Origin: Prevotella sp. | Lineage (GTDB): Bacteria > Bacteroidota > Bacteroidia > Bacteroidales > Bacteroidaceae | NCBI GenBank assembly: GCA_017623155.1 | Contig: JAGAPR010000034.1 | Coordinates: forward strand, 1 to 48,131 | Direction of reading: 5' to 3' | Length of the DNA stretch: 48,131 nt | In this document: positions 6,584-24,803 of the stretch, piece after piece | How positions within the stretch are numbered: position 1 is the stretch's first letter | Layout: every line of letters starts with the position of its first letter | The notes under the pieces: generated by a model | What the model was told of the DNA's origin: nothing | Databases searched by the model: none | The model's input: only the letters and a program-made list of their open reading frames with translations | Program-made: the position numbers and the translations under genes

Positions 6584-7080
6584 CGAGAGTTTAATGAATA
6601 ATACCGGTTAACAGTTCAACTTCGGAATTAACTAAAAATATGTAAACGAAAAGTAAAAAGTCGATACAAAACATTTTCGCGAAGTAGGTTTTGTTAACTT
6701 AAAATATTTAACTTAAAAGGCGGTTATTTAATGTTCGTAAACAATCGCATGTCGGCTTTTTCTCCTTTTCGCACATTTTCGCCTTGCAATAAGGCCGTAA
6801 TTGCATTGCATTTACGGCCTGACGGGCGTCCAATTAGGCCGTAATTGGAATGCAATTACGGCCTAATTGGAAAACAAGACGGTTTTTGGAACAATGAAAA
6901 ACGATAAAAATCGCCATAAACAGCTTATACACAAATATTTACGCAAAGCGCTCCATAATTCGCGTATTTGCGAGCTCGAAACTTTTTTTTCAGAAAAACG
7001 CATTCTCAGCGACGTTAACATAATAAGTTTTGACACTTTATTTATGCTTATTTAACCAAAAAGCGTATCAGATGTTAAAC
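6584..7080 (+). repeat. Long structured intergenic repeat, left copy (inverted partner at 24319-24803)
   Basis: This part of the 756-bp spacer 6451-7206 aligns along its length with the reverse complement of 24319-24803. Shared blocks, in order, include AACGAAAAGTAAAAAG, GAAGTAGGTTTTGTTAAC, two GGCCGTAA hairpins, GGAAAACAAGACG, CTCCATAATTCGCGTA, TCTCAGCGACGTTAACAT and GACACTTTATTTATGC. By eye the identity is roughly three quarters. No open frame is conserved as a plausible protein. It lies between the divergent dcp and outer-membrane protein genes. Function unknown: a dispersed repeat, a non-coding RNA or an upstream regulatory module are all possible. Confidence 0.85.
6792..6870 (+). repeat. 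Two adjacent GGCCGTAA hairpins in the left repeat copy
   Basis: Hairpin 1 (6792-6820) pairs AGGCCGTAA with TTACGGCCT and continues inward after one mismatch. Hairpin 2 (6830-6870) has perfect 18-bp arms, CCAATTAGGCCGTAATTG and its complement, around the 5-nt loop GAATG. Both are kept in the right copy, and one pair of hairpin 2 is exchanged with compensation there. No U-tract follows, so these are not ordinary terminators. Confidence 0.85.
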
Positions 7081-7143
7081 GTCAAATTTCGGATGTCACA
7101 AAAAAACTATATCACTTATCACAGTTTTATCGGATTATTTGTA

Positions 7144-7151
7144 TATCTTTG
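7144..7151 (+). promoter_or_regulatory. Promoter -7 box for the outer-membrane protein gene
   Basis: TATCTTTG matches TAnnTTTG and lies 55 bp before the ATG at 7207. It begins 63 bp after the end of the long structured repeat. Confidence 0.6.
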
Positions 7152-7206
7152 CATCCGTCATGAGACACAATATTTTTATATAACAAACTTTATATTTCAT
7201 ACAGAC

Positions 7207-7860
7207 ATGAAAAAAATCATCATCGCAATAATGGCGGTTGTAATGGCTCTGCCGGCCTGTGCGCAATACGACATGTATAGAGAACAAGGCAACGGATACC
7301 AGAGTTTCAAGGAAAGATATAATCTTTACTACGGTCTGCGACTCGGTTTGGCCGTGAGTTCGGTGCACTCCGACGACCCTACACTCGACGGCGGGGGCAA
7401 TCAGGCCGGACTGAACCTCGGTGGTGTGATTGGCGTCAACCTTTCTCCCACTACACCCATATCGCTCGAGACCGGACTGTTCTATACCGAAAAGGGCGGA
7501 AAAGGTGTTATCGACGGGGTTAAATTCACGTTCGACCTGAACTATTTGGAAATTCCCATCACGGCAAAATACAGATATGAGTTGAACGAAGATTTCTCCA
7601 TTCAACCGTTCTTCGGCGGATACTTCGCGTTCGGTGTTGGCGGAAAGGTTAAGAACTACAAGGAAAGAGAAAGCTGTTCGTCGTTTTCCGACGACTATTT
7701 CAAGCGGTTTGACGGCGGTCTGCGCATAGGATGCGGTGCCGAATACAGCATGATTTATGCCGAAGCGGCCTACGAATTCGGTCTGTCTAACATCTGTCAC
7801 AGCGACTTTGATTCATCAAGAAACGGATGCTTCTACATCAACTGCGGCATTAATTTTTAG
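7207..7860 (+). CDS. Outer-membrane beta-barrel protein (small porin-like)
   Basis: A 217-residue exported protein. The start at 7207 gives a clean signal peptide (about 1-20: MKKIIIAIMAVVMALPACAQ), with cleavage probably after ACA before QYD; an upstream in-frame ATG at 7030 would bury it. The mature part alternates short amphipathic strands and turns (ISLETGLFYTEKGG, FDLNYLEIPITAKYRYEL, FSIQPFFGGYFAFGVGG, LRIGCGAEYSMIYAEAAYEF) and ends in the aromatic residue F, typical of PF13568/PF13505-type 8-strand barrels. The ligand is unknown. It is a single-gene unit ending at the cloverleaf repeat. Confidence 0.85.
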   Translation: MKKIIIAIMAVVMALPACAQYDMYREQGNGYQSFKERYNLYYGLRLGLAVSSVHSDDPTLDGGGNQAGLNLGGVIGVNLSPTTPISLETGLFYTEKGGKGVIDGVKFTFDLNYLEIPITAKYRYELNEDFSIQPFFGGYFAFGVGGKVKNYKERESCSSFSDDYFKRFDGGLRIGCGAEYSMIYAEAAYEFGLSNICHSDFDSSRNGCFYINCGINF

Positions 7861-7861
7861 T

Positions 7862-8066
7862 TTTTTCTTAGGAGTTTTTTTAGAGGAGTAAAAGGAGTTA
7901 AGGAAGTTATCGCAGGCTGTGCCTGCTTGGAGTTAAAGACAAATGCTTTAAGTAATGAACCGGCAATGTTCACGACTTAAAGCATTTGTCTTTAACTCCC
8001 CGCTCGCTTTCGAGCGGATAACTCCCTTAACTCTTTTTACTCCTCTAAAAAAACTCCTAAGAAAAA
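7862..8066. repeat. 205-bp four-way (cloverleaf-like) palindromic element
   Basis: A 49-bp outer stem (7862-7910 with 8018-8066) has one mismatch and one G-U. It encloses three further stem-loops: GCAGGC-tgt-GCCTGC (7912-7926), a 25-bp perfect stem (7929-7953 with 7975-7999, arm GGAGTTAAAGACAAATGCTT plus 5 nt) and CCGCTCG-cttt-CGAGCGG (8000-8017). It fills the gap between two convergent genes (stops at 7860 and 8080). It contains no plausible gene. It may act as a bidirectional terminator and looks like a dispersed repeat. Confidence 0.9.
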
Positions 8067-8079
8067 CTCCTAAAACAAA

Positions 8080-10944
8080 TCATTTCAGCTTCGGTTTCAA
8101 CTCATCGGGAGAGTCGTTCGTGAACATGTTCACGGCCGGAGCGTCTTTCTCAAAAAGGTTTGTTATCGTATGAGGGGCAAGTGTGATCGACGGATTGAAG
8201 TCGTCGCCGCTCACATATTCTATTATCGCCTTACGCATCTGGCGGGCAACCACGCGACGGTCGAGGTCACTGTCAATGTCCATCGTCGTCATGAACAGCT
8301 TACCTTTCAATACGTTTGCCTCGACAATCATTCCTATTTTGCGACTTATGTGCCACGTATCTATCGGCTGGACAGGGGGCTGATAAGCAGCGGGGAATTC
8401 CCTAAGGTTCATCACCTGTGCCTTGTTGAGCAACTCCCACCAGTTCAAATTACTCCAATCATCGGTCGGAAAACCGCGGAAAAGCGGATGCCCTGTGTCA
8501 ATATATGCACCGGTGGTGTGCGGCGGACGCATCTTAAACCAACTCGTATTCCAGAAAACGGGAAGATATGTCTGCTTTATGTCGCTGCCCATACGCACCT
8601 TTCCGGCAGCCGTAATGAGCACACGACCGCCACGCCCGAGCACTTTCAACGCCTCGGCATCGAGCGTATCGGTGATATGTATGCCCTCGGCAGACGGCAT
8701 TTCCATGGATTTCGGATATACCCAGAAGTCCCATTTGTTCTCCGTTTGTGGAGCGTTGGCCGATGTCAGGGACACCGTGAGCGTCAGTTTCTTGGGTTCG
8801 TCGATGCCGTCAAGGGCGAATATAACATCGCACAAGGTGTTGTTCTTGCCCGTTTCAAAGTCTTTCCCCTGTGTCTTTCCCGTGCCGAGGACCCGTCCCT
8901 CACACGAAACAGTATACACGGCGGCAGCATCCCGCAATGTTTCTTTGTATGCGTTATACAACTCAACGGGCACTCTCAGTGTCTCGTCGTTGGTATAAAC
9001 AAATTTAGGGAAGCGCGCAAAAGGCACTATCGGCGAACAGAAACGATGCCAATCGGCAGCCGTGCAGTAGCCTTTCTCGCGCCAGAATACATTGAGAACG
9101 CCCACAAGAGCAGTGCCCTGACCACTGTAATCGTTCAATCCCAGCAGCTGAAAACCGGCATAATCCTTTGTCCGCAGATTGCGTTCAATCTCATATTTAT
9201 AAGCAAGAGTCTGTAGTTTGCCGCTCGCCATGAGGAATTTGTCGGCCTGCGAGGCCATTCCGTTATCGCGAAGCAGGTCTCGGAATATCTCGAAATTGCC
9301 TGCCTTGTACGCTCCGGTGTACTGATTGACCTCTTTTAAGTCGGGAAATGCACACCATTGCCCTTGTTCATGAGCCAATATCGGCGTTGTGTTGACATCA
9401 TCGGGAGACTTCGGCTTGAAGTTGCGCGGGCGCAATATCTGGTCGTAATAATCGTCGGTCGACTGCGGAGCATGCCTGTCCCAGTCGAGTCCGCGCGCTC
9501 CTCCTTTCACATGATACTCGCTCTTGGGGTCCCAAGCCCATCCTCCGCCCACCGACGCACCGCAATATACGCGGCGTTTATCGCCCGTCTGCTTCCAGTA
9601 ATCCACAAAGTCGCCCACCCAGCGCACCCAGTCGCCGGCCGGTTCGTTGCCCGCCGCGAGCATGCAGAACGACGGATGATTGCCATAAACCTTTACCATG
9701 CGCTGTGTTTCTTCAAGCAAATAGCGGTCGATGGACATCTTTCTGCCGAGCCGCACGCCGTGATTTGGCCATGAGGGACCCTCGGGTTGCAGATAAAAGC
9801 CCACCTTATCGGCTGCCGAGAATGCCGCTTCGGGCGGACAATAAGAGTGAAAACGCATCATGTTAAGACCGTATTCCTTGCATTTACGGAATATCTTTAT
9901 CCACGACTCTTCATCGGTGGGAGGATAACCCGTCAGCGGGAAGCAACAGTTGCCAACCGTTCCACGCAGCCATATAGGGTTGCCATTAAGATAAAACTGC
10001 CTGCCACGGATGGCTATCTCGCTCATTCCGAACGTCACGCGACGCACATCGTCGCCTATTGCGACGGTAATCTCATACAAATTCGGCTCAAACTCGCTCC
10101 ACAATTTCACGTCGTCGCCCATGTCAAGCACCACCGATGCCGTGTCGCCGGAGACCTTTTGTACGGCAATAATACCACTGTCGGGTGACGATACGCCCGA
10201 TGTTATCAACCGCGGGCGACCGAACGACACTTTACCGCGGCCTTTGTCGCCTGCCGTTCGCACCGAAACACGAATACGTTTGTTGCCCACATCGGGATAA
10301 ACCTGCACGTCTTCGAGGTAAACGCGGGGCACACTGCGCAGCTCTATCCTGCCCGTTACACCGTTCCAGCAGCCTTGTGTCTGGTCGGTAACGCTGTGAG
10401 AGTCTTGCCCCACGCACACATTCTCGATGCCGTTGTATATCCGTATGGCTATGTCATTGGCCTGTCCGGGCTTCACAAACGGCGTTATGTCAAACTCATG
10501 GGGCACACTCAGCGACGAGTCGCGCCCCGCAATGCTGCCGTTTACGTATACCGTCGTCTCGATGTGCGGGCGTTCGAGATACAAAATAACACGCCTCTTG
10601 CGCCATGTCTTGGGCACATCCACACGCTTCATGTACCACGCCGTGCCTACATAATGCTTGCCGGGAGTGAGGAAGAACGGAAATTTCATTTTCCCGGCGA
10701 CACGGTATTTCTCCATGTAGGGATTGAAAAAGAACGACGAGTCATAAAGACTGCTAACCCAACGGGTGTTCACCGTCACTTCATCGCCTTTGCCATTGGT
10801 GAGCATCGACCCGGGCAATGTTATCTTGTCGTTATATTCCGGCTTGTCACCCATTGCGAAATTCCACTCGCCGGAAAGGTCTATCGTCTGCGCTACTGAG
10901 GGCAATCCGATGATAATCAATAATATCAGAAAGTATTTTCTCAT
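8080..10944 (-). CDS. Exported GH2 family glycoside hydrolase
   Basis: A retaining exo-glycosidase of the GH2 family (beta-galactosidase, beta-glucuronidase and relatives). Of 954 residues, 1-18 form a signal peptide ending in VAQ. Next come a jelly-roll sugar-binding domain (about 20-205, with WYMKRVDVP and the ETTVYVNG block), an immunoglobulin-like domain (about 210-310) and a TIM barrel. The acid/base is probably E434 (GNEP) and the nucleophile E526 (HEQGQW). A further 250 residues form C-terminal beta domains. The exact substrate is not readable. It is the last gene of the SGNH > GH35 > GH2 unit, starting 62 bp after GH35 with no promoter seen in the gap. Confidence 0.92.
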   Translation of the reverse strand: MRKYFLILLIIIGLPSVAQTIDLSGEWNFAMGDKPEYNDKITLPGSMLTNGKGDEVTVNTRWVSSLYDSSFFFNPYMEKYRVAGKMKFPFFLTPGKHYVGTAWYMKRVDVPKTWRKRRVILYLERPHIETTVYVNGSIAGRDSSLSVPHEFDITPFVKPGQANDIAIRIYNGIENVCVGQDSHSVTDQTQGCWNGVTGRIELRSVPRVYLEDVQVYPDVGNKRIRVSVRTAGDKGRGKVSFGRPRLITSGVSSPDSGIIAVQKVSGDTASVVLDMGDDVKLWSEFEPNLYEITVAIGDDVRRVTFGMSEIAIRGRQFYLNGNPIWLRGTVGNCCFPLTGYPPTDEESWIKIFRKCKEYGLNMMRFHSYCPPEAAFSAADKVGFYLQPEGPSWPNHGVRLGRKMSIDRYLLEETQRMVKVYGNHPSFCMLAAGNEPAGDWVRWVGDFVDYWKQTGDKRRVYCGASVGGGWAWDPKSEYHVKGGARGLDWDRHAPQSTDDYYDQILRPRNFKPKSPDDVNTTPILAHEQGQWCAFPDLKEVNQYTGAYKAGNFEIFRDLLRDNGMASQADKFLMASGKLQTLAYKYEIERNLRTKDYAGFQLLGLNDYSGQGTALVGVLNVFWREKGYCTAADWHRFCSPIVPFARFPKFVYTNDETLRVPVELYNAYKETLRDAAAVYTVSCEGRVLGTGKTQGKDFETGKNNTLCDVIFALDGIDEPKKLTLTVSLTSANAPQTENKWDFWVYPKSMEMPSAEGIHITDTLDAEALKVLGRGGRVLITAAGKVRMGSDIKQTYLPVFWNTSWFKMRPPHTTGAYIDTGHPLFRGFPTDDWSNLNWWELLNKAQVMNLREFPAAYQPPVQPIDTWHISRKIGMIVEANVLKGKLFMTTMDIDSDLDRRVVARQMRKAIIEYVSGDDFNPSITLAPHTITNLFEKDAPAVNMFTNDSPDELKPKLK

Positions 10945-11006
10945 TGCTGATGTTTATTGTTTTTTTATGTTTAATGATATGAATAATCACTTTACAAGCC
11001 TTGAAT

Positions 11007-13037
11007 TCACGGCACGGGCACAATCTGCACGCCCAAGACTTTCTCTCCCGGCTTGTCTGTTTCTGCCTCACGGGGGAAATAAACCGGCATATTTTCCTGC
11101 AAAGGAAGTATCCGGAGCTCCAATTCCGTGCAACCTTCGGGCAAGCGCCAGAGTCCGAAAAGGAATTTACGGCCGTTGTAGAAATTATCGGCAATGAGTT
11201 TCCCGCCAGCATAGAGACGCGCAACATCACCCCGATAGTCTATTTCAAGCATGCGATGGAACTTGCTTACAGCCTCTTGCGGCACCGTAATACGGTATAC
11301 CGCGGCGGCATCGAAGTCGGCATCGACAGGCTCTTCGGCCACTTTCTGCACGCCGATGCTTATCTTGCGTGCCGGAACCGCGGCCTCCTTCACCTTGGTA
11401 CATGTGGCATTCAATCCTATATCTTCATGGACTGTTCCTTCATAAAACAGCCGCGAAGCCTCGTCGCCCGCCAACAAATAGATATTCTTATATATCGGTT
11501 TGGCCTGTCCCCGCGCCTTGACGTTCTTCAAAACCTTGCCGTCTACGGCTATCTCTACAGGCACACCGGCAATCTGTTCCATGTATATTTTGCCGTCGCG
11601 ACGCGCTATCAGTTGCGCGGTGGCATAGCGTATGCCGTCTACATTTACGGGAAATATGCACATCGTACCGGCCGGAATGGTGACAGGTCGCGACGGAAAC
11701 TTCACTCCGCAAACGTCGAACGTCACGTTTTTCTTTGCCGAAAGGTTTTGCAGACGCTCATAATTGTTTACGAACACGAAGCCGCTGCCATCCTTGGAAC
11801 GGTAAGACCATCGCAGGAAAGAGTCGTCGCCTTTCTTTATATCTTGCGGACACGGGAACGAAGCCGTCATCGGTGCGAGCATGTCGCCGTAGTCTTTCAT
11901 GAACAGATGCAGCTTGCGCAGAGTGAAATAATGCGGATTTGCCTGTCCGAACTCGCCGAGCGGAGCCTGAAAATCGTATGTTTTCACCGGCAGGTCATTA
12001 TAGTTTGTGCCCGGAGTACGTTGCGTCTCGTTAAGGTATGTGATGCCTTCGGGGTTGGTTCCGCCATGATACATGTAGTAGCCGAGCAGGTTACTGCCGC
12101 TTCCGAGCTTTACAATCGCGAGCGAATAGGCATCTTCGGGATATATGTACGGACGGCGGTGATAGGCCGTCATCATTCCGCCTCCGAGTTCACAGGTGAA
12201 ATACGGATACCTGTCATCGCCCTTGTCGAGTTTCTCTTTCTGCTCGCCGAGTTGCTCAGTGGCTATCGCCGTGCTGCTGCGGAACGCCTTGAAATTGAAT
12301 GCCTTGTAGTAATTCCCGGCTGTTTCGGCCGTGGAACGCTCCCAAAAGCCGTCGGCATAATCGCCATACAGTGGCAGCATCTCGCCGAAAGGAACGGGCG
12401 TGCGAAGTTCGGGCCAGCCGGTACGGGTGTAGAACGGCAGGTCGAAACCGATACCGAGGGCTATCTTTTTGAGTGCCATAAGGTAGCTGCCGCGCCCGCG
12501 ATACTCGTTGTCAAACTGTGCCGCGATTACCGGACCGCCGTCTTTCCATTGCAATCCCTGCACCTGAGTGAATATCTGGCGATACAAGCGCTCGGCATGT
12601 CGCATGAAAACGGCATTCTCCTCACGCATCTTACATCCCTTGGCAAACATCCAGTCGGGTATTCCGCCATTGCGCACCTCACCGTGACAGAACGGACCGA
12701 GACGCAAGACAACAGGCATTTCCTCTTTTTTGCACACTTCAAGAAAACGCCGCAAGTCTCTGCATCCGCTCCAATCAAACACTCCCTCACGCTCTTCCAC
12801 GTGATTCCAGAACACGTATGCCGCAATGATTGTGACACCGCCGGCTTTTATCCGGCGCACTTCTCTCTCCCATTCATCGGCCGGTATGCGCGAATAGTGC
12901 ACCTCACCCATCACCGGTACCACCCTTTTGCCATCCACAATGAGGCTGTGCTCATCCCAAGTGACAGTAGGAACCTGAGCCCGCAGTCCCATAAAACAGA
13001 ACAGACAGGCAAAAAATAAAACAAAACGCTGCTTCAT
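11007..13037 (-). CDS. Exported GH35 family beta-galactosidase
   Basis: GH35 enzymes remove terminal beta-galactosyl (rarely glucosaminyl) residues by a retaining mechanism. The 676-residue protein has a signal peptide (1-20, ending LRAQ) and the N-terminal TIM barrel with the family opening VPVMGEVHYSRIPADEWE. The acid/base is E178 (QFDNEY) and the nucleophile is probably E283 (TCELGGG). Beta-sandwich domains follow to the end. The last strand region (LELRILPLQENMPVYFPREA) is usual for Bacteroidota members. It lies 41 bp after the SGNH gene and 62 bp before GH2, so the three are probably co-transcribed from the promoter at 13908. Confidence 0.93.
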   Translation of the reverse strand: MKQRFVLFFACLFCFMGLRAQVPTVTWDEHSLIVDGKRVVPVMGEVHYSRIPADEWEREVRRIKAGGVTIIAAYVFWNHVEEREGVFDWSGCRDLRRFLEVCKKEEMPVVLRLGPFCHGEVRNGGIPDWMFAKGCKMREENAVFMRHAERLYRQIFTQVQGLQWKDGGPVIAAQFDNEYRGRGSYLMALKKIALGIGFDLPFYTRTGWPELRTPVPFGEMLPLYGDYADGFWERSTAETAGNYYKAFNFKAFRSSTAIATEQLGEQKEKLDKGDDRYPYFTCELGGGMMTAYHRRPYIYPEDAYSLAIVKLGSGSNLLGYYMYHGGTNPEGITYLNETQRTPGTNYNDLPVKTYDFQAPLGEFGQANPHYFTLRKLHLFMKDYGDMLAPMTASFPCPQDIKKGDDSFLRWSYRSKDGSGFVFVNNYERLQNLSAKKNVTFDVCGVKFPSRPVTIPAGTMCIFPVNVDGIRYATAQLIARRDGKIYMEQIAGVPVEIAVDGKVLKNVKARGQAKPIYKNIYLLAGDEASRLFYEGTVHEDIGLNATCTKVKEAAVPARKISIGVQKVAEEPVDADFDAAAVYRITVPQEAVSKFHRMLEIDYRGDVARLYAGGKLIADNFYNGRKFLFGLWRLPEGCTELELRILPLQENMPVYFPREAETDKPGEKVLGVQIVPVP

Positions 13038-13078
13038 TTATCAATTTATTATATTATATATCAATTTGTTTTTATCCG

Positions 13079-13840
13079 CTATTTATCTTTTCTTATCGCC
13101 TTGCTCACCTGCTCGGCAATCTGCCCGTGCCCCTTTATTGTGGGGTGACCGCTCTTTTTGTCGATACCTTTCAGCTCTATACACGGTACACCTTCATGCT
13201 CGCAAATGGCCTCTGCAGACGATGAAATATCGTCTCTCAGCCCGTCGTTAAGCAGAAAGTAGATCTCCGTATTGGGATAACGGTCTTTGATATACGCCAG
13301 CATATAGGCCATCGCAGGGCGAAACGTGTATAAATCGGCCTCGGAGATGCCCTCATACTTATATTCTCCCACGGGAACACCGGCCCAACTGTCGTTTGTT
13401 CCGCCAAATATAAAAATGATATCGGGGCATCCGAGATTATCCATTCTCGCTATAAACGAGCGGTCGCGATAGTCACTTCCATGATAACCGCGAAAGCTAA
13501 TGGTAGAGCCTGAGAATGAATTGTTCACGCAAAGCCGCCACCCGTTGTTCCTAACCACCTTGTGCCACCACGTCTGCCGCACACTGCTCACATCGGTGTT
13601 CTTATAATCCGGCGCGGCATGATACCACGTATAGTTTGCCCGCGGGGTTATAAATCCCTCGAAAGTGGAATAAGAATCTCCGAGCACCGACACGCTCTTT
13701 GTCTGCGCCTGCATGCCGAGGCAAACAAACACGAGGATTGTTACTGTCGACATGCGCAGTGCTGCCATGCGGAGAAGAGAACGATGGAAACTCCCGTCTC
13801 GGAGAATTACTGTGAATAATGAAAACATTTTCATATACAT
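13079..13840 (-). CDS. SGNH/GDSL-family hydrolase (probable carbohydrate esterase)
   Basis: An exported SGNH hydrolase, likely an acyl esterase that de-esterifies a glycan for the GH35 and GH2 enzymes encoded next to it. With the start at 13840 it has 253 residues. The nucleophile block GDSYS has its first Ser at 56, the GGTND block lies near 150, and the C-terminal GHPTIKGH block carries the catalytic His. A hydrophobic signal sequence (STVTILVFVCLGMQAQ) begins only at about residue 31, so the ATG at 13768 (MAALRM...) may be the real start, giving 229 residues. A consensus promoter lies 68 bp upstream of the longer start. Confidence 0.87.
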   Translation of the reverse strand: MYMKMFSLFTVILRDGSFHRSLLRMAALRMSTVTILVFVCLGMQAQTKSVSVLGDSYSTFEGFITPRANYTWYHAAPDYKNTDVSSVRQTWWHKVVRNNGWRLCVNNSFSGSTISFRGYHGSDYRDRSFIARMDNLGCPDIIFIFGGTNDSWAGVPVGEYKYEGISEADLYTFRPAMAYMLAYIKDRYPNTEIYFLLNDGLRDDISSSAEAICEHEGVPCIELKGIDKKSGHPTIKGHGQIAEQVSKAIRKDK

Positions 13841-13907
13841 ATTGATTTTATTTAGGTATAGTTATTACTTTGCCATGCCGGGGAAGGACGTGCCATGCAA
13901 GCGGCTA

Positions 13908-13939
13908 CAAAGGTAATAATATATAGTTTAATTGACAAA
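13908..13939 (-). promoter_or_regulatory. Consensus promoter for the SGNH-GH35-GH2 operon
   Basis: On the minus strand TTTG (13936-13939) is followed after 20 bp by TACCTTTG (13908-13915), a full Bacteroidota TTTG-N20-TAnnTTTG promoter. It drives the SGNH gene; the leader is about 60 nt, or about 130 nt if translation starts at 13768. GCCATGC occurs twice within the predicted early leader. Confidence 0.75.
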
Positions 13940-13967
13940 AAACCAAGGATGTATCATAGAACCTCCG

Positions 13968-17276: not shown

Positions 17277-17378
17277 ATTAATTAATTAACTTCTAAGTTC
17301 TAAATTATGAATTATGATTTTGTGGATTGGCTATTACACCTTAATTATATATACACCTTAGCCATTCTTTAAATAATA

Positions 17379-18740
17379 TCACTCCAGCCGTTTCCCCTTT
17401 GTCTCCGGCAGCCGTGCCTTGAAGATGGCAAAGCCGGCGAGGCATATCGCGCCGTAGAGCCAGAACGTGCCGCTGCTGCCGAGCGAGGCGTTGAGCGAGG
17501 GAAAGGAGAACGTCAGCGTGGTGCAGCCGGTCCAGAGGGCAAACGTACATGTGGCCATGGCCACGCCGCGCACCCGCGTGGGGAATATCTCGGAGAGCAG
17601 CACCCACGTCACCGGCCCGAGCGACATGGCATAGCAGGCTATCGCCGCCACTACGATCACCACCATGAAGAAGCCCGTGACGTGCAGATGATAGCATGTG
17701 CCGAGGATGAAGTATACCGCTGCCAGCGTACCTGCGCCGAAGAGCATCAGTGAGCGGCGGCCCCAACGGTCGACCGTGTAGATGGCCACGACGGTGAAGA
17801 TGACGTTGGCCACGCCCGTGATGACGATGTTGAAGAGCACGTCGCCCACGCTGTAGCCGGCTGCGGAGAATATCTCCTGCGCATAGTTGAATATCACGTT
17901 CGTGCCGCACCACTGCTGGAACACGGCGATGAAGACGCCGAGCACCAGCACGGAGGCATAGCGGCGTGAGAAGAGCGTGGCTAAGTTTCCGCTCTCCGAA
18001 GGCCCGGCCGGTGTGCCGCGCATGGCCTCGGCCTCGCTGCGGGCATATCCTGTCCCGCCGATGTGCGTGAGTGTGGCAAGCGCCTTGTCCTCCTGTGCGT
18101 GGACCATCTGCCACCGCGGACTCTCGGGGATGAAGAACGACAGGACGAGGAATGCCGCTGCGGGGAGAGCCTCGGCCCAGAACATCCAGCGCCATCCCGC
18201 CTGTCCGTTCCACGACGCGAGTATGTCGGCCTCGGTATAGCCGGCCGGCACCGGCTCGGCCAGCAGCCAGTTGACTATCTGCGCACCGAGTATGCCGAGC
18301 ACGATGGTCATCTGATTGAGCGAGACGAGCCGTCCGCGGACCCGGGCGGGCGAGATCTCGGCGATATACATCGGCGAGAGTGCCGAGGCTATGCCGATAC
18401 CGACGCCTCCGATGAAACGCGCTATATTAAATAAGGTGAAGTCGCTCACCGCCCCGGTAGCCACGGCCGACAGTGTGAAGAGCATGGCCGAGATGACGAG
18501 CAGAGGCCGGCGCCCGTAGCGGTCGGCCATGCCGCCGGCCACCATAGCGCCCACGAGACAGCCCACGAGGGCCGTCGACATGGCCACACCCTGCATGACG
18601 GGGTCCGCAGAGATGCCGAAGAAGACTTCGTAGAAGGGCTTTGCTCCGCCGATGACCACCCAGTCGTAGCCGAAGAGCAGACCGCCCATCGCCGAGACAA
18701 GGCAAATGAAAAAGATGAATGTCTTGTTGTAGTTGTCCAT
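17379..18740 (-). CDS. MFS sugar transporter (sugar porter family)
   Basis: An inner-membrane proton-coupled sugar importer of the XylE/GalP/AraE type. The 453-residue protein has 12 predicted membrane helices and the family signatures: GYDWVVIGGA near residue 25, DRYGRRP near 73, PESPRWQ near 195, DRWGRRS near 325 and the C-terminal PETKGKRLE. The sugar cannot be assigned, but the adjacent GH35 and GH2 genes suggest a hexose such as galactose. It is first in a unit with the DUF5107-TPR gene and divergent from an AraC regulator. Like its partner it is GC-rich (about 63% in a sampled line), pointing to joint transfer. Confidence 0.93.
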   Translation of the reverse strand: MDNYNKTFIFFICLVSAMGGLLFGYDWVVIGGAKPFYEVFFGISADPVMQGVAMSTALVGCLVGAMVAGGMADRYGRRPLLVISAMLFTLSAVATGAVSDFTLFNIARFIGGVGIGIASALSPMYIAEISPARVRGRLVSLNQMTIVLGILGAQIVNWLLAEPVPAGYTEADILASWNGQAGWRWMFWAEALPAAAFLVLSFFIPESPRWQMVHAQEDKALATLTHIGGTGYARSEAEAMRGTPAGPSESGNLATLFSRRYASVLVLGVFIAVFQQWCGTNVIFNYAQEIFSAAGYSVGDVLFNIVITGVANVIFTVVAIYTVDRWGRRSLMLFGAGTLAAVYFILGTCYHLHVTGFFMVVIVVAAIACYAMSLGPVTWVLLSEIFPTRVRGVAMATCTFALWTGCTTLTFSFPSLNASLGSSGTFWLYGAICLAGFAIFKARLPETKGKRLE

Positions 18741-18771
18741 AAAAGATTGCGTTTATACCGGTTAGTGTCTG

Positions 18772-18779
18772 CAAAGATA
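18772..18779 (-). promoter_or_regulatory. Promoter -7 box for the MFS-DUF5107 operon
   Basis: On the minus strand TATCTTTG, 31 bp upstream of the MFS start. No good TTTG is found at the expected -33 distance, in keeping with an activator-dependent promoter. Confidence 0.6.
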
Positions 18780-18879
18780 TGCAGAAAGGCTGAGTGGGGA
18801 AATAGAAAAACAAGTTGAAAGGATGGATAATCTTACGATTTACTCATCATCAGACAATCGGTAATACCGCAAGATAGCT

Positions 18880-19011
18880 TTGCTTGCTACCATCTGAGGT
18901 CTTGCATGCTATATAGAAGAGATTTCTCTAATAGGTATTACAGAAATCTCTAATGGGTATTACAGCATTCTCTGCCATATAGCATGCAAAACTTCAGATG
19001 GTAGCATGCAA
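18880..19011. promoter_or_regulatory. Nested palindrome and direct repeats in the MFS/AraC spacer
   Basis: The 344-bp divergent spacer holds an inverted repeat (18880-18916 with 18975-19011; 33 of 37 positions pair, plus one G-T), with core TTGCATGCTATAT. Its loop contains two 22-bp direct repeats (18922-18943 and 18944-18965, 19 of 22 identical, sharing TCTCTAAT and GGTATTACAG). Tandem half-sites two helical turns apart are the layout expected for an AraC-family operator. Both flanking promoters lie outside the structure. Confidence 0.75.
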
Positions 19012-19071
19012 CTCTTTAGACACCTATTGTTTTTTTATCCCGACGGGGTTTTATAATTCGGGAATTCTATA

Positions 19072-19079
19072 TAAATTTG
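19072..19079 (+). promoter_or_regulatory. Possible AraC gene promoter -7 box
   Basis: TAAATTTG matches TAnnTTTG but lies only 5 bp before the ATG at 19085, which would give an almost leaderless mRNA. No -33 TTTG is visible at 19-21 bp, so the call is tentative. Confidence 0.4.
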
Positions 19080-19084
19080 CAAGC

Positions 19085-19972
19085 ATGAAGCAGAAAGACG
19101 GATTCAGCGGCGAGCGTTCCATTGTGCTGCCGCAGATGATTATAGACATGGAGCGCAAAGACCCGCTGGTGTCGAGCCTTTACGTCACCGATATCGGATA
19201 TTATCCGCATGCCTACGGGCATTTCCGCGAGCGAAAGGAACCCATCGGACAGAACGTGCTGATATACAGCGCCGACGGGGCGGGGTGGTACCGCATCGGC
19301 AAGCTGGAGTTTGCCGTCGCCTCCAACCAGTTCTTCATTCTGCCCGCCGGCCAACCCCACGCTTACGGAGCCGACAGCAACAATCCATGGACAATCTATT
19401 GGGTGCATTTCACGGGCAGCCACTCCGACATCTACGCCCGCGGGGCAACCTCGCCGCAAGTTGTGCGACCGGGCATACATTCGAGAATAAACTACCGGAA
19501 CAACATCTTTGAGGAGATTTTCAACACGCTCAACGCCGGTTACAGCCGTGACAGTATGCGCTATGTGTCATCTCTCCTACACTACTATCTGGCTTCGATG
19601 CGCTATCTCAGAACGTTCAGGAACGCAGGACAGCGCATCGACGATGACAACGTGGTGGCCGCGGCGATACATTTCATGGAGGAAAACATGGAAAAACGTC
19701 TCACGCTTGAGGCCATAGCCGAATACACAGGATATTCGCCGAGCCACTTCTCAGCCATGTTCAAACGGCAGACAGGACGGAGCCCGCTCAACTACCTGAA
19801 CGGGATGAAGATGGAGGAGGCACGGCGCATGCTCGCCGAAACGCCGATGCGCATCAACCAGATATGCCACAAGGTGGGCATCGACGACTGCTATTATTTC
19901 TCGCGCCTCTTCAGCCGCACCACGGGTATGTCGCCAAAGGAATACCGAAAGGGAATGAAAACAGACGAGTAG
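19085..19972 (+). CDS. AraC family transcriptional regulator
   Basis: A sugar-responsive DNA-binding protein of 295 residues. The N-terminal half is an AraC-type cupin (YYPHAYGHFRERKEPIGQNVLIYSADGAGWYRIG and ILPAGQPHAYGAD), typical of one-domain-sensor regulators. The C-terminal 100 residues contain two helix-turn-helix units (LEAIAEYTGYSPSHFSAMFKRQTG and INQICHKVGIDDCYYFSRLFSRTTG). The start at 19085 is chosen because homologous regulators begin shortly before the LPQMII block; an in-frame ATG at 18998 would add 29 unrelated residues. It is divergent from the MFS-DUF5107 unit, which is its likely target. Confidence 0.93.
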   Translation: MKQKDGFSGERSIVLPQMIIDMERKDPLVSSLYVTDIGYYPHAYGHFRERKEPIGQNVLIYSADGAGWYRIGKLEFAVASNQFFILPAGQPHAYGADSNNPWTIYWVHFTGSHSDIYARGATSPQVVRPGIHSRINYRNNIFEEIFNTLNAGYSRDSMRYVSSLLHYYLASMRYLRTFRNAGQRIDDDNVVAAAIHFMEENMEKRLTLEAIAEYTGYSPSHFSAMFKRQTGRSPLNYLNGMKMEEARRMLAETPMRINQICHKVGIDDCYYFSRLFSRTTGMSPKEYRKGMKTDE

Positions 19973-20081
19973 TCATCCTGTTGACTGCTATCAGGGTCTG
20001 GAAACACCGTACACATAACGTGAAACGGCACGAATCACGACACCAAAGCGCACGGAAACGTGAAGAAACATTAACAAATGC

Positions 20082-20112
20082 TTTGTTGTACGAAATAATA
20101 ATCGTACCTTTG
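20082..20112 (+). promoter_or_regulatory. Consensus promoter for the SulP gene
   Basis: TTTG (20082-20085), 19 bp, then TACCTTTG (20105-20112): a full Bacteroidota promoter, 39 bp before the ATG at 20152. Confidence 0.75.
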
Positions 20113-20151
20113 CGCCCTGTTTTTCAGAACAACGAATTTATTATTAGTCAG

Positions 20152-21834
20152 ATGAAAGCATTTGCATTTAAACCGAAGTTGGTTTCAACTTTGAAAAATT
20201 ACAACCGTAAAACCTTTATGGCCGACCTCATGGCCGGCATCATCGTGGGCATAGTGGCACTGCCACTGGCCATCGCTTTCGGTATCGCCTCGGGCGTAAC
20301 GCCCGAGAAGGGTATCATCACGGCCATCGTTGCCGGACTCATCGTCTCCGTGTTCGGAGGAAGCCGCGTGCAGATAGGCGGACCCACGGGAGCGTTCATA
20401 ATCATCATTTACGGTATTATACAACAGTATGGCATGGAGGGTTTGGCCGTGGCCACGTTCATGGCGGGAGCGTTTCTCGTACTGTTCGGCATGCTGCGCC
20501 TCGGCACCATAATCAAGTACATTCCCTACCCCATCATCGTGGGCTTCACAAGCGGTATCGCCGTGACCATCTTCACCACGCAGATAAAAGACTTGCTCGG
20601 CCTGACGATGGACAGCGTGCCGGCAGATTTCATCGAGAAATGGATTGCTTACGGGCGGAATATAGCGACCATCGACCCGTGGAGCGCGGCAATAGGAATA
20701 CTGAGCGTGGCCGTGATAGCCGTAACTCCGAAGTTCAGCAAGAAAATTCCCGGCTCGCTCATAGCCATCATAATAATGACTGTGGCCGCTTTGATGCTGA
20801 AAAACATGGCTGGTGTGACCACCATAGAAACCATCGGCGACCGCTTTTCGATAAGCAGCACGCTGCCGGAACTAAGCATGCCGCAGATGACATGGGAGAC
20901 AATAAAGAGCCTTGTGTCGCCCGCCATCACCATCGCGATACTCGGTGCGATAGAGTCGTTGCTGTCCGCTACCGTTGCCGACGGTGTTATAGGCGATCAT
21001 CACGACTCAAACACCGAACTGGTGGCACAGGGTATGGCCAATCTCGCGTCGCCGTTATTCGGCGGAATACCGGCCACAGGAGCCATCGCCCGAACGATGA
21101 CGAACATAAACAACGGCGGCCGCACACCGATAGCGGGAATAATACACGCCGCGGTGCTGCTGCTGATATTCCTTTTCCTCATGCCGCTGGCACAATATAT
21201 ACCGATGGCATGCCTCGCCGGCGTGCTCGTGGTTGTATCATACGGTATGTGCGGCTGGCGCTCGTTCGCGGCTTTGATGAAAAATCCGAAGAGCGACGTG
21301 AGCGTGCTGCTCATCACTTTCTTCCTGACTATCATCTTCGACCTCACGATAGCGATAGAAGTGGGCCTGATAATAGCGTGCCTGCTGTTCATGAAACGTA
21401 TGTCGGAGACAACGGACGTGAAAGTAATCTTGGATGAGATAGACCCCAACGACGAGGCCGATGTGGACATGGGCAACCTCGAACACCTTACTATTCCGCA
21501 TGGTGTTGAAGTTTACGAGATTAACGGCCCGTACTTCTTCGGAGCCGGAAACAAGTTTGAGGAAATCATGGCAGCGTTCGGCGACCGTCCGCAAGTGCGG
21601 ATAATACGAATGCGAAAGGTGCCGTTTGTCGACTCGACCGGTATCCATAACCTCACAAACTTGTGCCTGATGAGCAAGAACGAGGGCATACAGATTGTGC
21701 TTTCCGGTGTCAACGACAAGGTACAAAAGGCACTGAGGAAAGCCGGTTTCAACGATATCGTCGGCGAAGAGAACATCTGCGGCCACATAGATCAGGCTCT
21801 CGTGCGAGCAGGTGATATTGTGGGCAGAGAATAA
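20152..21834 (+). CDS. SulP family anion transporter with STAS domain
   Basis: An inner-membrane transporter of the SLC26/SulP family (sulfate, bicarbonate or other anions; the substrate is not readable). The 560-residue protein begins with a short cytoplasmic stretch, then the SulP entry motif (DLMAGIIVGIVALPLAIAFGIASGVTPEKGI, about 24-54) and 10-14 membrane segments to about residue 425. A C-terminal STAS domain (about 435-555) contains the conserved VDSTGIHNL loop. The start at 20152 follows a consensus promoter by 39 bp; in-frame codons upstream cross that promoter. It is transcribed alone and convergent with the HAD phosphatase. Confidence 0.94.
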   Translation: MKAFAFKPKLVSTLKNYNRKTFMADLMAGIIVGIVALPLAIAFGIASGVTPEKGIITAIVAGLIVSVFGGSRVQIGGPTGAFIIIIYGIIQQYGMEGLAVATFMAGAFLVLFGMLRLGTIIKYIPYPIIVGFTSGIAVTIFTTQIKDLLGLTMDSVPADFIEKWIAYGRNIATIDPWSAAIGILSVAVIAVTPKFSKKIPGSLIAIIIMTVAALMLKNMAGVTTIETIGDRFSISSTLPELSMPQMTWETIKSLVSPAITIAILGAIESLLSATVADGVIGDHHDSNTELVAQGMANLASPLFGGIPATGAIARTMTNINNGGRTPIAGIIHAAVLLLIFLFLMPLAQYIPMACLAGVLVVVSYGMCGWRSFAALMKNPKSDVSVLLITFFLTIIFDLTIAIEVGLIIACLLFMKRMSETTDVKVILDEIDPNDEADVDMGNLEHLTIPHGVEVYEINGPYFFGAGNKFEEIMAAFGDRPQVRIIRMRKVPFVDSTGIHNLTNLCLMSKNEGIQIVLSGVNDKVQKALRKAGFNDIVGEENICGHIDQALVRAGDIVGRE

Positions 21835-21858
21835 AACGTATATTGATAAACAACGGGA

Positions 21859-21936
21859 TGCGCGTCCTGTGGTTCCATCGAAGAAAAGACTTGTGCTCAT
21901 TGAGGTCTTTTCTCGTGCGGAAACACAGGACGCGCA
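21859..21936. repeat. Long imperfect stem-loop between convergent genes
   Basis: Arms 21859-21890 and 21905-21936 pair over about 28 bp with one small internal loop and one bulge; the outer 13 bp (TGCGCGTCCTGTG) are perfect. It lies between the stops of SulP (21834) and the HAD gene (21942), so it probably ends transcription from both sides, although no U-tract follows. Confidence 0.8.
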
Positions 21937-21941
21937 CTATT

Positions 21942-22574
21942 TCAAACGATATTCAACAACTCTCCGAAATCATCTATCACAAAGTCGGCATTCACGAAAT
22001 CTTCCCGTTTCCCGTTGCCGTATGTCACGGCACATGTCTTCGTTCCGGCACTGCGCCCCATCTCGATGTCGAACACCGTATCGCCCACCACGAGCGCGTC
22101 TTCGGCCGTTCCGCCGACAGCTGCAAGTATCTTGTTCACCATTTCGGGCGCGGGCTTGGCATCGGTCACATCCCATGCCGACACGATATAAGATATATAC
22201 TCCTCCAGTCCCATGTCGCGCACAAAGGCTGTAAGCGTGTCGCGCCCGCGGCTGCTGGCTATCGTGAGCGTCATTCCCCGGTCGTGCATTTCCTTTAATG
22301 TTTCCTTCACGTGCGGAAACAACGGCACGGCACCCGGCACATTGTTTATGTCGAACAGTGCGGCGTATGTTTCCTCGCACTTTCTTCCCGTTTCCTCGTC
22401 CATCGGTATAAGTTCCGTGAAAGTACGGCGCAACGGCAAACCAATCATTGCCGCGCACTGTTCGTCGGTTCTTTGCGGCAATCCGAGCTTCGCTATCGTC
22501 TGCTGCATTGTTCTGACTATAAGCGAATTGGTATCACCCATAGTGCCGTCGAAATCCAAAATTATCGTTTTCAT
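21942..22574 (-). CDS. HAD superfamily hydrolase (phosphoglycolate phosphatase / beta-phosphoglucomutase type)
   Basis: A 210-residue haloacid-dehalogenase phosphatase. Motif I is DFDGT, with the nucleophile D7 and D9. Motif II is the ASSRGRD region near 107, motif III the lysine in AKPAPEMV near 147, and motif IV GDTVFDIEMG near 170. A helical C1 cap lies between motifs I and II. The substrate could be phosphoglycolate or a sugar phosphate. It follows the sodium:solute symporter by 29 bp and so is probably co-expressed with it. Confidence 0.9.
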   Translation of the reverse strand: MKTIILDFDGTMGDTNSLIVRTMQQTIAKLGLPQRTDEQCAAMIGLPLRRTFTELIPMDEETGRKCEETYAALFDINNVPGAVPLFPHVKETLKEMHDRGMTLTIASSRGRDTLTAFVRDMGLEEYISYIVSAWDVTDAKPAPEMVNKILAAVGGTAEDALVVGDTVFDIEMGRSAGTKTCAVTYGNGKREDFVNADFVIDDFGELLNIV

Positions 22575-22603
22575 CTGATTTTTGTTTATGTTTCACTTGT
22601 TCT

Positions 22604-24067
22604 TTATTTGCCTGTCGCCGTCATACTTTCATCTTGCTTTCTCTCTCCTTGACGGCCAATGCCCGACAAATACAGCCCCAAGAAAGTGATGATGCCGTTC
22701 ATCATCAACAGTTCGTAGCCGAATTTATATCCCAAAATATTTTGAGCCGTCACGTCGATGGCAAAGCAAAGCAACGGCGAAAGCACGGCGATATAAGGTG
22801 TCCACGAGTCGTTAACGCTCCTTTTCGTGGCCAGTCCGAAAGCGAAAAGGCCGAGCAACGGACCGTAACTGTATGAACATATTATGTATATGGCGTCTAT
22901 CACGCTCGTGGAATTGACAATCTTAAACATCAGTATGCACAAGACGAAAAGCACACACATCGTTATATGTGTGCGCCGGCGCAGCCGTTCGTCGCCGGGA
23001 CGACGCATGATATCCACGCAAAAACTCGTGGTGAGAGATGTCAAAGCCGAATCGGCACTGCTGAACGATGCCGCCACCATGCCGATGGTGAACAAGACGA
23101 CCACCGACACGCCGAGATTTCCCGACGCAGCAAACATCGGCAGAATGTCGTCGGATGCCTCCGGCAACGCCATTCCCCGGCTTTCGGCAAGCATAACGAG
23201 AAGAACACCGAGCGACAGAAACATCAGATTGACCGGCACAAAGGCAAAACCATACGTACACATGTCCTTGCGGGCCTCGCGCAAAGTCTTGCACGTGAGG
23301 TTTTTCTGCATCATATCCTGATCGAGTCCGGTCATTACCACCACTATGAATATGCCGCTGACAAACTGTTTCCAGAAGTTCTGCTTCGACATCCAGTCGT
23401 CAAACACAAATATACGGCTCATTCCGCTCTCCGAGACAGTGGTCACAGCCTCGCCAAGAGTAAGACCGAGGGCATCGGAAACATTGATGAATATGAGCAC
23501 GAGAGCCGTGAACAGGCATGCTGTCTGGAATGTATCCGTCCACACGAGTGTCTTTATTCCGCCACGATATGTGTATAACCATATCAGCGCGACCATGCAA
23601 ACGACGGTTACGGCAAACGGAATGCCAACCAAATCGAACACAAAACGTTGCAGAATGACGCAGACCACATAAAACCGCACGGCAGACATGGTCATCTTTG
23701 TAACGAGAAAGAACCACGCTCCCGTCTTATAGGCTCTGTCGCCGAGCCTGCTCCCGAGGTAGGTATATATTGTAGTGAGATTATGCCTGTAATACAACGG
23801 TAACAGAACAAAAGCCACCGCGAAATAACCGAGTATAAATCCGAGACATGTCTGTATATATGTCATGTCGGTATGCACCACCATGCCGGGCACCGACACG
23901 AACGTCACGCCGCTGATTGACGCGCCCACCATGCCGAAAGCCACCATGTACCACGGCGAGCGGCGCCCCGCCCTGTAAAATGTCTCGTTGGTTGCCCCGC
24001 GTCCGGTTATCCTGCTCACACCGAGGAGCACAAAAAAATATGCCAATATCGTGATGATGATTATCAT
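22604..24067 (-). CDS. Sodium:solute symporter family (SLC5-type) transporter
   Basis: An inner-membrane Na+-coupled transporter of 487 residues with about 13 hydrophobic segments. The family entry sequence TNETFYRAGRRSPWYMVAFGMVGASISGVTF lies at about 26-56. The substrate is unknown; sugars, sialic acid, proline or pantothenate are all family substrates. The ATG at 24067 is required to keep the first membrane helix and lies 4 bp from a consensus promoter. The HAD phosphatase follows after 29 bp, hinting at import followed by dephosphorylation of a metabolite. Two TTCGTGTnnACACGAA palindromes lie 130-190 bp upstream. Confidence 0.92.
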   Translation of the reverse strand: MIIIITILAYFFVLLGVSRITGRGATNETFYRAGRRSPWYMVAFGMVGASISGVTFVSVPGMVVHTDMTYIQTCLGFILGYFAVAFVLLPLYYRHNLTTIYTYLGSRLGDRAYKTGAWFFLVTKMTMSAVRFYVVCVILQRFVFDLVGIPFAVTVVCMVALIWLYTYRGGIKTLVWTDTFQTACLFTALVLIFINVSDALGLTLGEAVTTVSESGMSRIFVFDDWMSKQNFWKQFVSGIFIVVVMTGLDQDMMQKNLTCKTLREARKDMCTYGFAFVPVNLMFLSLGVLLVMLAESRGMALPEASDDILPMFAASGNLGVSVVVLFTIGMVAASFSSADSALTSLTTSFCVDIMRRPGDERLRRRTHITMCVLFVLCILMFKIVNSTSVIDAIYIICSYSYGPLLGLFAFGLATKRSVNDSWTPYIAVLSPLLCFAIDVTAQNILGYKFGYELLMMNGIITFLGLYLSGIGRQGERKQDESMTATGK

Positions 24068-24071
24068 GCCG

Positions 24072-24102
24072 CAAAGTTACTACAATTCGCAGATACGGCA
24101 AA
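24072..24102 (-). promoter_or_regulatory. Consensus promoter abutting the symporter ATG
   Basis: On the minus strand TTTG (24099-24102), 19 bp, then TAACTTTG (24072-24079). Only CGGC separates the -7 box from the ATG, so the transcript should be leaderless or nearly so. Confidence 0.75.
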
Positions 24103-24196
24103 GAAAAAAACGTACCGACTGCGATAATCCGCTTTTCTGTTTCATGGAAATCACATAAAATAGAACAAGCATACTAACCGGACATGCGGAGCAACA

Positions 24197-24222
24197 AAAT
24201 ATTCGTGTCGACACGAATATTT
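24197..24222. promoter_or_regulatory. Perfect 26-bp palindrome (possible operator 1)
   Basis: A perfect palindrome centred at 24209/24210 with core TTCGTGTCGACACGAA. It shares both seven-base half-sites with the palindrome centred 40 bp away. It lies upstream of the symporter promoter. Confidence 0.75.
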
Positions 24223-24241
24223 CTCTTAAATCGAAGAAAAA

Positions 24242-24257
24242 TTCGTGTATACACGAA
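24242..24257. promoter_or_regulatory. Perfect 16-bp palindrome (possible operator 2)
   Basis: TTCGTGTATACACGAA, a perfect palindrome with the same half-sites (TTCGTGT/ACACGAA) as 24202-24217 and different central bases. Confidence 0.75.
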
Positions 24258-24318
24258 ACTTTTAATAAAAACATTCTTTAAATCACGAATGGTGCTGCTC
24301 CCGCTTCGGTTATTCGGA

Positions 24319-24803
24319 TTTAACATCTGACACGGCATTTCGTTAAAGATGCATAAATAAAGTGTCAAGATATATTATGTTAACGTCGCTGAGAATCGAT
24401 TCTTTTCCACGAAAAAAATTTTTGGCGCAAATACGCGAATTATGGAGCACTTAATATAAATACCTATATATTAGATACTTATAACAATTTAAGCCGTTTT
24501 TCGTTGCCTCGAAAATCGTCTTGTTTTCCAATAAGGCCGTAATTGCATTCCAATTACGGCCTTATTGCACTCCCGTTAGGCCGTAAATGCAATGCAATTA
24601 CGGCCTTATTGCAAGGCAAAAATGTACAAAAAAGAGAAAAGGCCGATATATAATTGTTTACAAATATTAAATAACTACGTTTTAAGTTAAATATTTTAAG
24701 TTAACAAAACCTACTTCACGAAAATCTTTTGTCATGGCTTTTTACTTTTCGTTCACATACTTTTAGTTAAACGCGAAGTTGGAATGTTAAAGCAAACTCT
24801 CAC
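24319..24803 (-). repeat. Long structured intergenic repeat, right copy (inverted partner at 6584-7080)
   Basis: This occupies most of the 936-bp spacer 24068-25003. It contains hairpin 2 (24528-24567, arms AATAAGGCCGTAATTG) and hairpin 1 (24576-24607). It lies between the divergent symporter (-) and trpB2 (+) genes, oriented towards the symporter just as the left copy is oriented towards the outer-membrane protein gene. Small frames in it are not conserved beyond the DNA repeat itself. The rest of the spacer (24804-24964) is AT-rich trpB2 upstream DNA with no other structure seen. Confidence 0.85.

Follow-up and report, generated by a model that had tools for sequence, protein, structure and literature searches.

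Why should two spacers between unrelated genes hold the same long stretch of non-coding DNA? The question arises from a 48,131-nucleotide stretch of a Prevotella sp. genome (assembly GCA_017623155.1, contig JAGAPR010000034.1, positions 1 to 48,131), called the window below, in which the original prediction had noted a module of ~490 bp, present twice in inverted orientation. Both copies, here named E1 and E2, were confirmed; they are inverted to each other, align without large gaps and are 82.8% identical across 472 bases, diverged as had been seen, with an identity above the three quarters estimated by eye. By sequence analysis, we found that the module is one of many copies in its own genome, that it is built around an array of short sites in a 22-bp register, that such arrays are evenly spaced in two species, that arrays of different families keep a distance from one another, that the elements are confined to intergenic DNA and that unit sequences differ from one species to another. 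We propose, with a probability of roughly 0.4, that E1 and E2 are two members of a chromosome-wide set of intergenic landmarks for a putative DNA-binding protein oligomer. Repeats dispersed in bacterial genomes are commonly seen as the scattered remains of mobile elements; the class described here is placed more evenly than any of 10,000 random placements, keeps its register across species without a sequence in common and shows a distance between families.

Copies and anatomy of the element

The genome that holds the window (G000) is a metagenome-assembled genome (MAG) of 2.74 Mb in 104 contigs, 84% complete. A whole-genome search, the check proposed with the original prediction, found the module throughout its intergenic DNA. 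With E1 as the BLASTN query, the best 40 of 131 candidates were all long matches (at least 316 bits, E1 included), and a query with the right half of E1 added C42:149632, C30:25721, C8:87918 and C28:14561. The 31-bp left core of E1 returned 57 sites at ≤3 mismatches against 0 for the reversed control, and an oriented hairpin pattern gave at least 62 + 66 matches, at least one of them the second hairpin of one element, against 0 for its control. With 40 long BLASTN matches, and 57 core sites against a control of 0, the similarity is well above chance and the copies extend well beyond the two in the window. We count ~120 copies, with at least 122 positions compiled from the match lists, some of them placed only within a few hundred bases. 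The nearest relatives of E1 in this genome are copies with 83-89% identity.

We then aligned 42 copies. Their conserved stretch is bounded by a TTTAACAT-like left end and a ATGTTAAA-like right end; these terminal ends span ~8 bp and are imperfect, and the TTAAC motif is present internally too. The interval first proposed for E1, 6584-7080, thereby stands from 6608 onward, its first 24 bases (6584-6607) lying outside the match in most copies. The element length is nearly constant, with ≤3 gap positions in 37 of the 42 aligned copies, and two others are cut by contig ends. Conservation averages 0.93 over the 100 columns around the array and reaches ≤0.84 in the remaining blocks. Neighbouring palindromes of the E1 array lie in opposite orientation, and the distance from the array end to the right core is 82 bp in E1 and E2 alike.

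The copies fall into two main classes, A and B, which have the array in common and differ in their left and right modules; mosaic copies between the class modules are also present. As judged by eye, the unit order is forward, reverse, forward, reverse in class A, and forward, reverse, reverse, reverse in class B. A second set of alignments, anchored on the hairpins, gave 0.96 (class A) and 0.97 (class B) for the array blocks and also 0.96 for the class B left module, in a set that may count some copies twice, in shifted register (99 'class A' instances, of which 60 were used). Because this set may hold shifted duplicates, the conservation figure for the array is taken from the 42-copy alignment. 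A low indel rate (0.033 indel events per substitution in class A and 0.016 in class B) was considered as a sign of strong constraint, and this argument was dropped because an orthologous spacer of genomes G070 and G214 likewise has almost no indels.

Several small repeats were seen at the borders of the element. A short G+C-rich repeat of the CTCCCCTTTGGGGAGG...GGGAGGGGCT type often adjoins the left end (L013, L026, L140, L145, L166), and a degenerate AGATG-like run of variable length often lies beyond the right end of class A copies. A shared outer stretch, GAATAATGCAG, lies ahead of the left end in L007, L008, L012 and L024, and roughly in L001; in L028 and L060 it is seen in inverted orientation past the right end, which would suit a further small repeat nested at this place.

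Even spacing along the chromosome

The elements were mapped by profile hidden Markov models (HMMs) over 788 kb (C102 from 1 to 200 kb, the whole of C89, and C42 from 1 to 240 kb), which placed 41 elements, 24 of class A and 17 of class B. The 38 gaps between them have a mean of 18.5 kb, a minimum of 7.4 kb, a maximum of 38.9 kb and a coefficient of variation (CV) of 0.45. As the null, we chose at random among the real spacers, either uniformly, by length, among long non-convergent spacers only or among divergent spacers only, with 10,000 runs each. The mean CV of these placements was 0.80-0.90, and 0 of 10,000 reached 0.45 under each of the four weightings. A separate spacing test on an initial set of 400 kb agreed with this result, and the 122 compiled positions gave, on six long contigs, 53 gaps with a CV of 0.47 against 0.93 for the uniform null. 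The two classes cluster regionally, same-class neighbours making up 27 of 38 (P = 0.0065), as in C102 (1 A and 8 B) and C42 (13 A and 2 B).

Many contigs (C3, C8, C11, C21, C23, C26, C28, C39, C85, C90 and C93) break off within or beside an element, which makes it look as though assembly of this MAG is limited by the elements. Close pairs may be under-represented in an assembly whose contigs end in elements; we do not think that breaks at elements explain the even spacing on the long contigs.

Regular gaps could also be left by non-autonomous mobile elements served by a Mu/Tn7-like transposase, the 22-bp repeats being transposase sites and target immunity giving the spacing. In a Tn7-like transposon, a TnsB binding site measures 22 bp and adjacent sites overlap by 1 bp (PMC9371665), and cis-immunity is a named phenomenon of Mu (PMC7350765). 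Serial 22-bp sites together with a spacing effect are thus a likeness to Mu/Tn7-like ends, and the high copy number, the regional clustering of classes and the mosaic modules fit copying. This is the main rival, which we regard as unlikely though still a serious contender; the points on which it fails to account for the data are given with the results below.

The 22-bp register and arrays of other sequence

The register was also recovered by a scan that makes no reference to any sequence and counts clusters of self-matching sequence for each lag from 13 to 40. Over the 788 kb it found 36 clusters at lag 22 and ≤1 at any other lag. A strict scan gave 6 clusters at lag 22 against 0 at other lags in G024, and 2 against 0 in G126; G016 had 1 cluster at lag 22, with lags 13 and 40 also at 1, and 80 named Prevotella loci had 8 at lag 22, 7 at lag 21 and 3 at lag 33. 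In a looser scan, the lag-22 counts were 50 in the own genome, 8 in G126, 3 in G016, 6 in G024 and 12 in the named loci, against means of 0.3, 0.0, 0.1, 0.0 and 1.2, and maxima of 2, 0, 1, 0 and 8, respectively, for the remaining lags, multiples of 3 left aside.

At a threshold of 30/44 matches, this approach revealed 12 lag-22 arrays outside the 41 elements, all 12 of them intergenic, with 0 or 1 at each of eight control lags. By sequence they fall into three groups, with 7, 2 and 3 arrays, none of which has a BLAST match to E1 or E2 at E 0.01; the largest is family C (7 arrays), of which the window array at 40.54-40.66 kb is an additional member. None of the 12 lies less than 6 kb from any other array (7.0 or 5.4 expected, P = 0.0001 or 0.0007), and the elements and further arrays taken together have a joint CV of 0.36. 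When the threshold was lowered to 28 and 27, 1 of 16 and 1 of 17 arrays lay within 6 kb (P ≤0.0006).

It is here that arrays of different sequence are seen to keep apart, for which immunity within one family gives no account, and in this they are unlike Mu/Tn7-like ends. A variant of the idea would make the arrays immunity beacons, kept by the host every ~14 kb as transposase-site arrays that repel Mu/Tn7-like transposons, with units that track the current invader. Such beacons would cover the 22-bp register, the spacing scale and the species-different units in one account, yet arrays against different invaders should sit independently of one another and these keep their distance, so that we hold the variant to be very improbable.

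Arrays in other Prevotella species

We searched E1 by BLASTN against 398 genomes of the genus, its own included, with the best 2 candidates per genome. Only short matches were obtained, in 6 other species, and 5 of these fell on the right core, which there has other repeats, of different sequence, upstream of it. A hairpin pattern had 0 hits in genome_contigs. A right-core pattern with ≤1 mismatch was found in 36 of the 398 genomes, the own genome included, against a total of 6 in the reversed controls, with 30 matches in the own genome, 19 in G029, 7 each in G126 and G207, 6 in G208, 5 in G026 and 4 in G070. A lag of 22, 44 or 66 bp was among the six strongest upstream of the core in 10 of 10 cases (nine other species and the own genome); the strongest direct-repeat lag of the G208 block was 16. 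A copy-by-copy test for self-match at 22 or 44 bp, run without a control lag, was positive in 7/7 copies of G126, 5/5 of G026, 6/6 of G207, 1/1 of G012, 2/4 of G070, 1/2 of G214 and 1/2 of G209. The 22-bp register thus recurs in other Prevotella, weakly in some, with different unit sequences, in arrays of two to eight or nine short sites.

The spacing was then mapped in G126. One locus, L386, matched only itself when used as a query in this genome, and an HMM built from six other copies (E < 1e-5; the mapped stretch contains two of the six training copies) placed 21 elements in 400 kb, against one hit of E = 0.03 for the reversed control. The gaps have a mean of 16.6 kb, a CV of 0.45 and a minimum of 9.0 kb (P = 0.0001 against uniform placement). 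When the proteins flanking the elements of the own genome were compared with G126, 1 of 81 matched in the mapped stretch, 6.4 kb from an element. In G208 (2 contigs), 24 elements compiled from 42 matches to a query covering part of the element only gave a CV of 0.47 and a minimum gap of 60 kb (P = 0.00025). Eight of the nine distinct elements examined, of the 24 detected, lie 5' of 16S rRNA genes (L423, L424, L427, L428, L429, L431, L432 and L434); because the query was partial and 16S rRNA genes are themselves dispersed, the spacing in G208 is weaker evidence.

An orthologous element is retained in place between G070 and G214. The corresponding loci, L401 and L419, show one element locus with ~1.7 kb of extra DNA near the element.

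The original prediction had also offered a transcribed RNA as a function. A structured non-coding RNA family would be in keeping with neighbouring units that pair into hairpins and with changes between E1 and E2 that match on both arms, although such changes are equally expected from conserved dyad symmetry. Rfam gave 0 matches above the gathering score in the window, and in 32 loci surrounding such elements in other species it matched nothing but rRNA and tRNA; moreover, the feature that recurs between species is the direct 22-bp register. We therefore do not retain the RNA proposal, which of all the accounts appears the least probable. Instead, the register, the intergenic place, the distance between arrays and the mostly dyad units point to DNA rather than RNA as the active form, with a putative protein on one face of the helix; the sites would share one face because 22 bp is about two helical turns.

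Further repeated intergenic stretches were observed in G016 and G024 (L249-L268), among them a pair of 265 bp in L257 and copies in tandem in L267; the gene calls of G024 (46 genes in 200 kb) look poor.

Placement relative to genes

Genes were called with a simple codon-score caller, retrained per genome. None of the 41 mapped copies overlaps a called gene by >60 bp. The gene calls and domain matches bore out the statement that the flanking genes are divergent at both window copies, and the right end of the element points towards the inner gene in E1 and in E2, as had been described. A tie to divergent spacers holds in part: class A has 15 divergent, 8 tandem and 1 convergent of 24 (6.1 divergent expected, p = 1.5e-4), and a larger class A set has 31 divergent, 18 tandem and 2 convergent of 51 callable on both sides (59 located in 61 loci), whereas class B has 6 divergent, 9 tandem and 2 convergent of 17 (4.3 divergent expected) and the other species have 6 divergent, 13 tandem and 9 convergent of 28 callable from 37, one orthologous pair being counted twice. 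The divergent setting is a property of class A, and a general divergent-spacer function was rejected on the lack of such a bias in class B and in other species.

These orientations bear on a second rival, in which the arrays are cis-regulatory, acting as enhancer or activator sites upstream of promoters, with an own regulator and operator per species. The ends of class A elements do face gene starts (left 21/24, right 17/24), and the G208 elements 5' of 16S rRNA genes would suit this account. Class B, in contrast, has no clear bias (left 10/17, right 11/17), elements of other species are found in convergent settings as often as in divergent ones (9 vs 6 of 28), and even spacing is not predicted by regulation. 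Nor do the scanned flanking genes have a common function: the nearest-neighbour proteins scanned, 24 in number (20 beside class A copies and 4 in the window, part of 82 flanks), are mixed, e.g. SRP54, LepA, sigma-70, dihydroxy-acid dehydratase and heavy-metal ATPase. A common regulon was rejected on this ground, the same proteins lend no support to the shared upstream regulator of the original prediction, and we consider cis-regulation improbable. Its third proposal, an insulator, fares better, in that the even spacing is consistent with a role of that kind.

We also investigated the slot 5' of the dcp gene, where E1 is placed. In 8 of the 80 named loci a lag-22 array lies within 800 bp 5' of dcp, the rest of these loci (842 kb) holding 10 such arrays, and five control lags gave none. 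After exclusion of 7 of the 18 arrays at gene edges or locus ends and of 1 without a called dcp spacer (called in 37 of the 80 loci), 10 spacer arrays remain, 7 of them in the dcp spacer, with 2.7 expected after adjustment for spacer length (P = 0.005). The seven arrays comprise four unit types; four arrays have related units, and the other three and E1 show no similarity. That several species carry arrays at this site, with different units, counts against mobile elements with immunity.

Comparison with known repeat systems

Target-site duplications (TSDs) were sought at 39 anchored class A copies with k = 4, 5, 6, 8 and 9, and none was clearly above mismatched pairs, in a test where 3 of 12 rows inspected look misanchored at the right end. 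The marks that had been named for a simple mobile repeat, namely random scatter, copies inside genes and TSDs, thus all came out the opposite way, and a simple scattered miniature inverted-repeat transposable element (MITE) was rejected as the sole explanation. The lack of TSDs above the null also counts against mobile elements with immunity, as does the array in the middle of the element rather than at its ends. Mu/Tn7-like transposons have arrays at both ends and TSDs, unlike the single central array per element seen here, with no TSD seen and no transposase search made.

REP, REPIN and BIME sequences are short palindromes present in many copies in intergenic DNA, and REP/REPIN with RAYT consist of a 20-40 bp palindrome and a cognate Y1 transposase. 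The present elements resemble them in their many short intergenic palindromes, but differ in the 470-bp unit, the four sites in a fixed 22-bp register, the arrays of other sequence and the even spacing. Iteron and centromere arrays consist of direct repeats of close to 22 bp that lie along one face of the helix and bind proteins cooperatively; they occur as single loci on plasmids or a few per chromosome. The repeats near 22 bp on one helix face are shared with them, whereas about one array every 14-18 kb is not.

A closer comparison is offered by BrickBuilt, a MITE of Porphyromonas gingivalis, which is always intergenic, has a leader and a tail around a repeat block of 1 to 22.8 direct 23-nt repeats without spacers, occurs in few species with 19 copies in one strain, and has terminal inverted repeats (TIRs) such as GAGACCTTTGCA and empty sites with 4-nt duplications (PMC4596501). 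The two have in common the Bacteroidales host, the intergenic place, the flanked repeat block, a close period and the narrow species range (PMC4596501). They differ in that the period here is 22 with four units in both window copies rather than 23 nt in variable number, that the ends are TTTAACAT-like rather than GAGACCTTTGCA, and that we find mostly dyad sites, a nearly constant length, ~120 copies, even spacing and no TSD. Among the best-ranked titles and abstract openings of the open-access literature, a scope with most subscription journals outside it, no Prevotella description of these elements was found.

Arrays as putative chromosome landmarks

Having set these alternatives out, we return to the landmark proposal. 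The working part of the element would be the array of about four short, mostly dyad-symmetric sites in 22-bp register, on which an oligomeric DNA-binding protein, nucleoid-associated or centromere-like, may assemble. One array per roughly 14 kb could then anchor or delimit a chromosome loop or a supercoiling domain, and arrays closer than ~6 kb would be redundant or harmful and hence not kept; we infer selection as the cause of the spacing. The even spacing, the distance between families and the dcp arrays with new units fit landmarks that would be kept by selection. More tentatively, Prevotella chromosomes may carry a ruler, with an array in 22-bp register about every 14 kb. Its register and spacing would be conserved and its letters free, and the several families of a genome would form one interchangeable set of landmarks.

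A number of observations weigh against this proposal. Target immunity would also yield even spacing within one family, and our thresholds were picked in the course of the analysis. At threshold 29, with 14 arrays, the median distance to elements has P = 0.037 (uniform) and 0.11 (length-weighted) and the minimum distance P = 0.43 and 0.65, and at looser thresholds one array is only 1.5 kb from an element. Taken separately, the 7 arrays of family C include none closer than 6 kb to an element (P 0.007 and 0.04), and the 5 of the other two groups likewise none (P 0.02 and 0.12); one of the 12 further arrays has a 10-base half-site in common with the E1 unit. In the window itself, the weak array at 18.90-18.99 kb, a singleton, is only 5.6 kb from E2. 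As for the register, lag 21 is nearly as common as lag 22 in the 80 named loci (7 vs 8), and the self-match at 22 or 44 bp is weak in G029 (2/10) and not seen per copy in G208 (0/6). The spacing of G126 was tested against uniform placement only, and that of G026 is uneven (19 matches, incompletely detected): distances of 5.9 and 6.8 kb separate three of its copies, and the other detected ones are mostly far away. Finally, the four dcp arrays with related units are not independent because of that relation, and the symporter slot of E2 is not conserved, arrays occurring in 2 of 29 symporter loci, both 3' of the gene on our reading of the locus strand.

If functional, the arrays would mark out chromosome domains visibly across the whole genome in a major genus of the gut and rumen, and domain anchoring would be directly testable; if target immunity is the cause instead, they would be a record of it left by nature with unusual clarity.

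Features of the window

The features of the window are collected in Table 1.

Table 1. Elements, arrays and flanking genes, in positions of the window
Feature	Position	Strand	Remarks
Element E1, class A, 473 bp	6608-7080	+	Between Peptidase_M3 and outer-membrane protein genes; bounds from the 42-copy alignment
Left core of E1, 31 bp	6682-6712	+	56 other genomic places at ≤3 mismatches
Array of E1	6787-6874	+	Four 17-bp imperfect palindromes, 5-bp spacers, 22-bp register
Right core of E1, AATTCGCGTATTTGCG	6957-6972	+	Also downstream of other arrays in other Prevotella species
Element E2, class A, 472 bp	24319-24790	-	Between SSF symporter and PALP-domain (trpB2-like) genes
Left core of E2	24686-24716	-	
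Array of E2, four units, 22-bp register	24524-24611	-	Units 3 and 4 with matching changes relative to E1
Right core of E2	24426-24441	-	
Further 22-bp array, family C unit (GTTACAAGGCCGTTGTAACATC type)	40539-40664	not assigned	Intergenic, 16 kb from E2
Short weaker 22-bp array, uncertain membership	18902-18985	not assigned	Divergent spacer, 5.6 kb from E2
Peptidase_M3 gene (dcp-like)	4357-6450	-	Left of E1
Outer-membrane beta-barrel protein gene	7207-7860	+	Right of E1
SSF symporter gene	22604-24067	-	Neighbour of E2
PALP-domain gene	25004-26368	+	Neighbour of E2; fits the trpB2 of the original prediction

The best 80 dcp homologues in named genomes, which belong to Prevotella, Prevotellaceae and relatives, are 79-86% identical.

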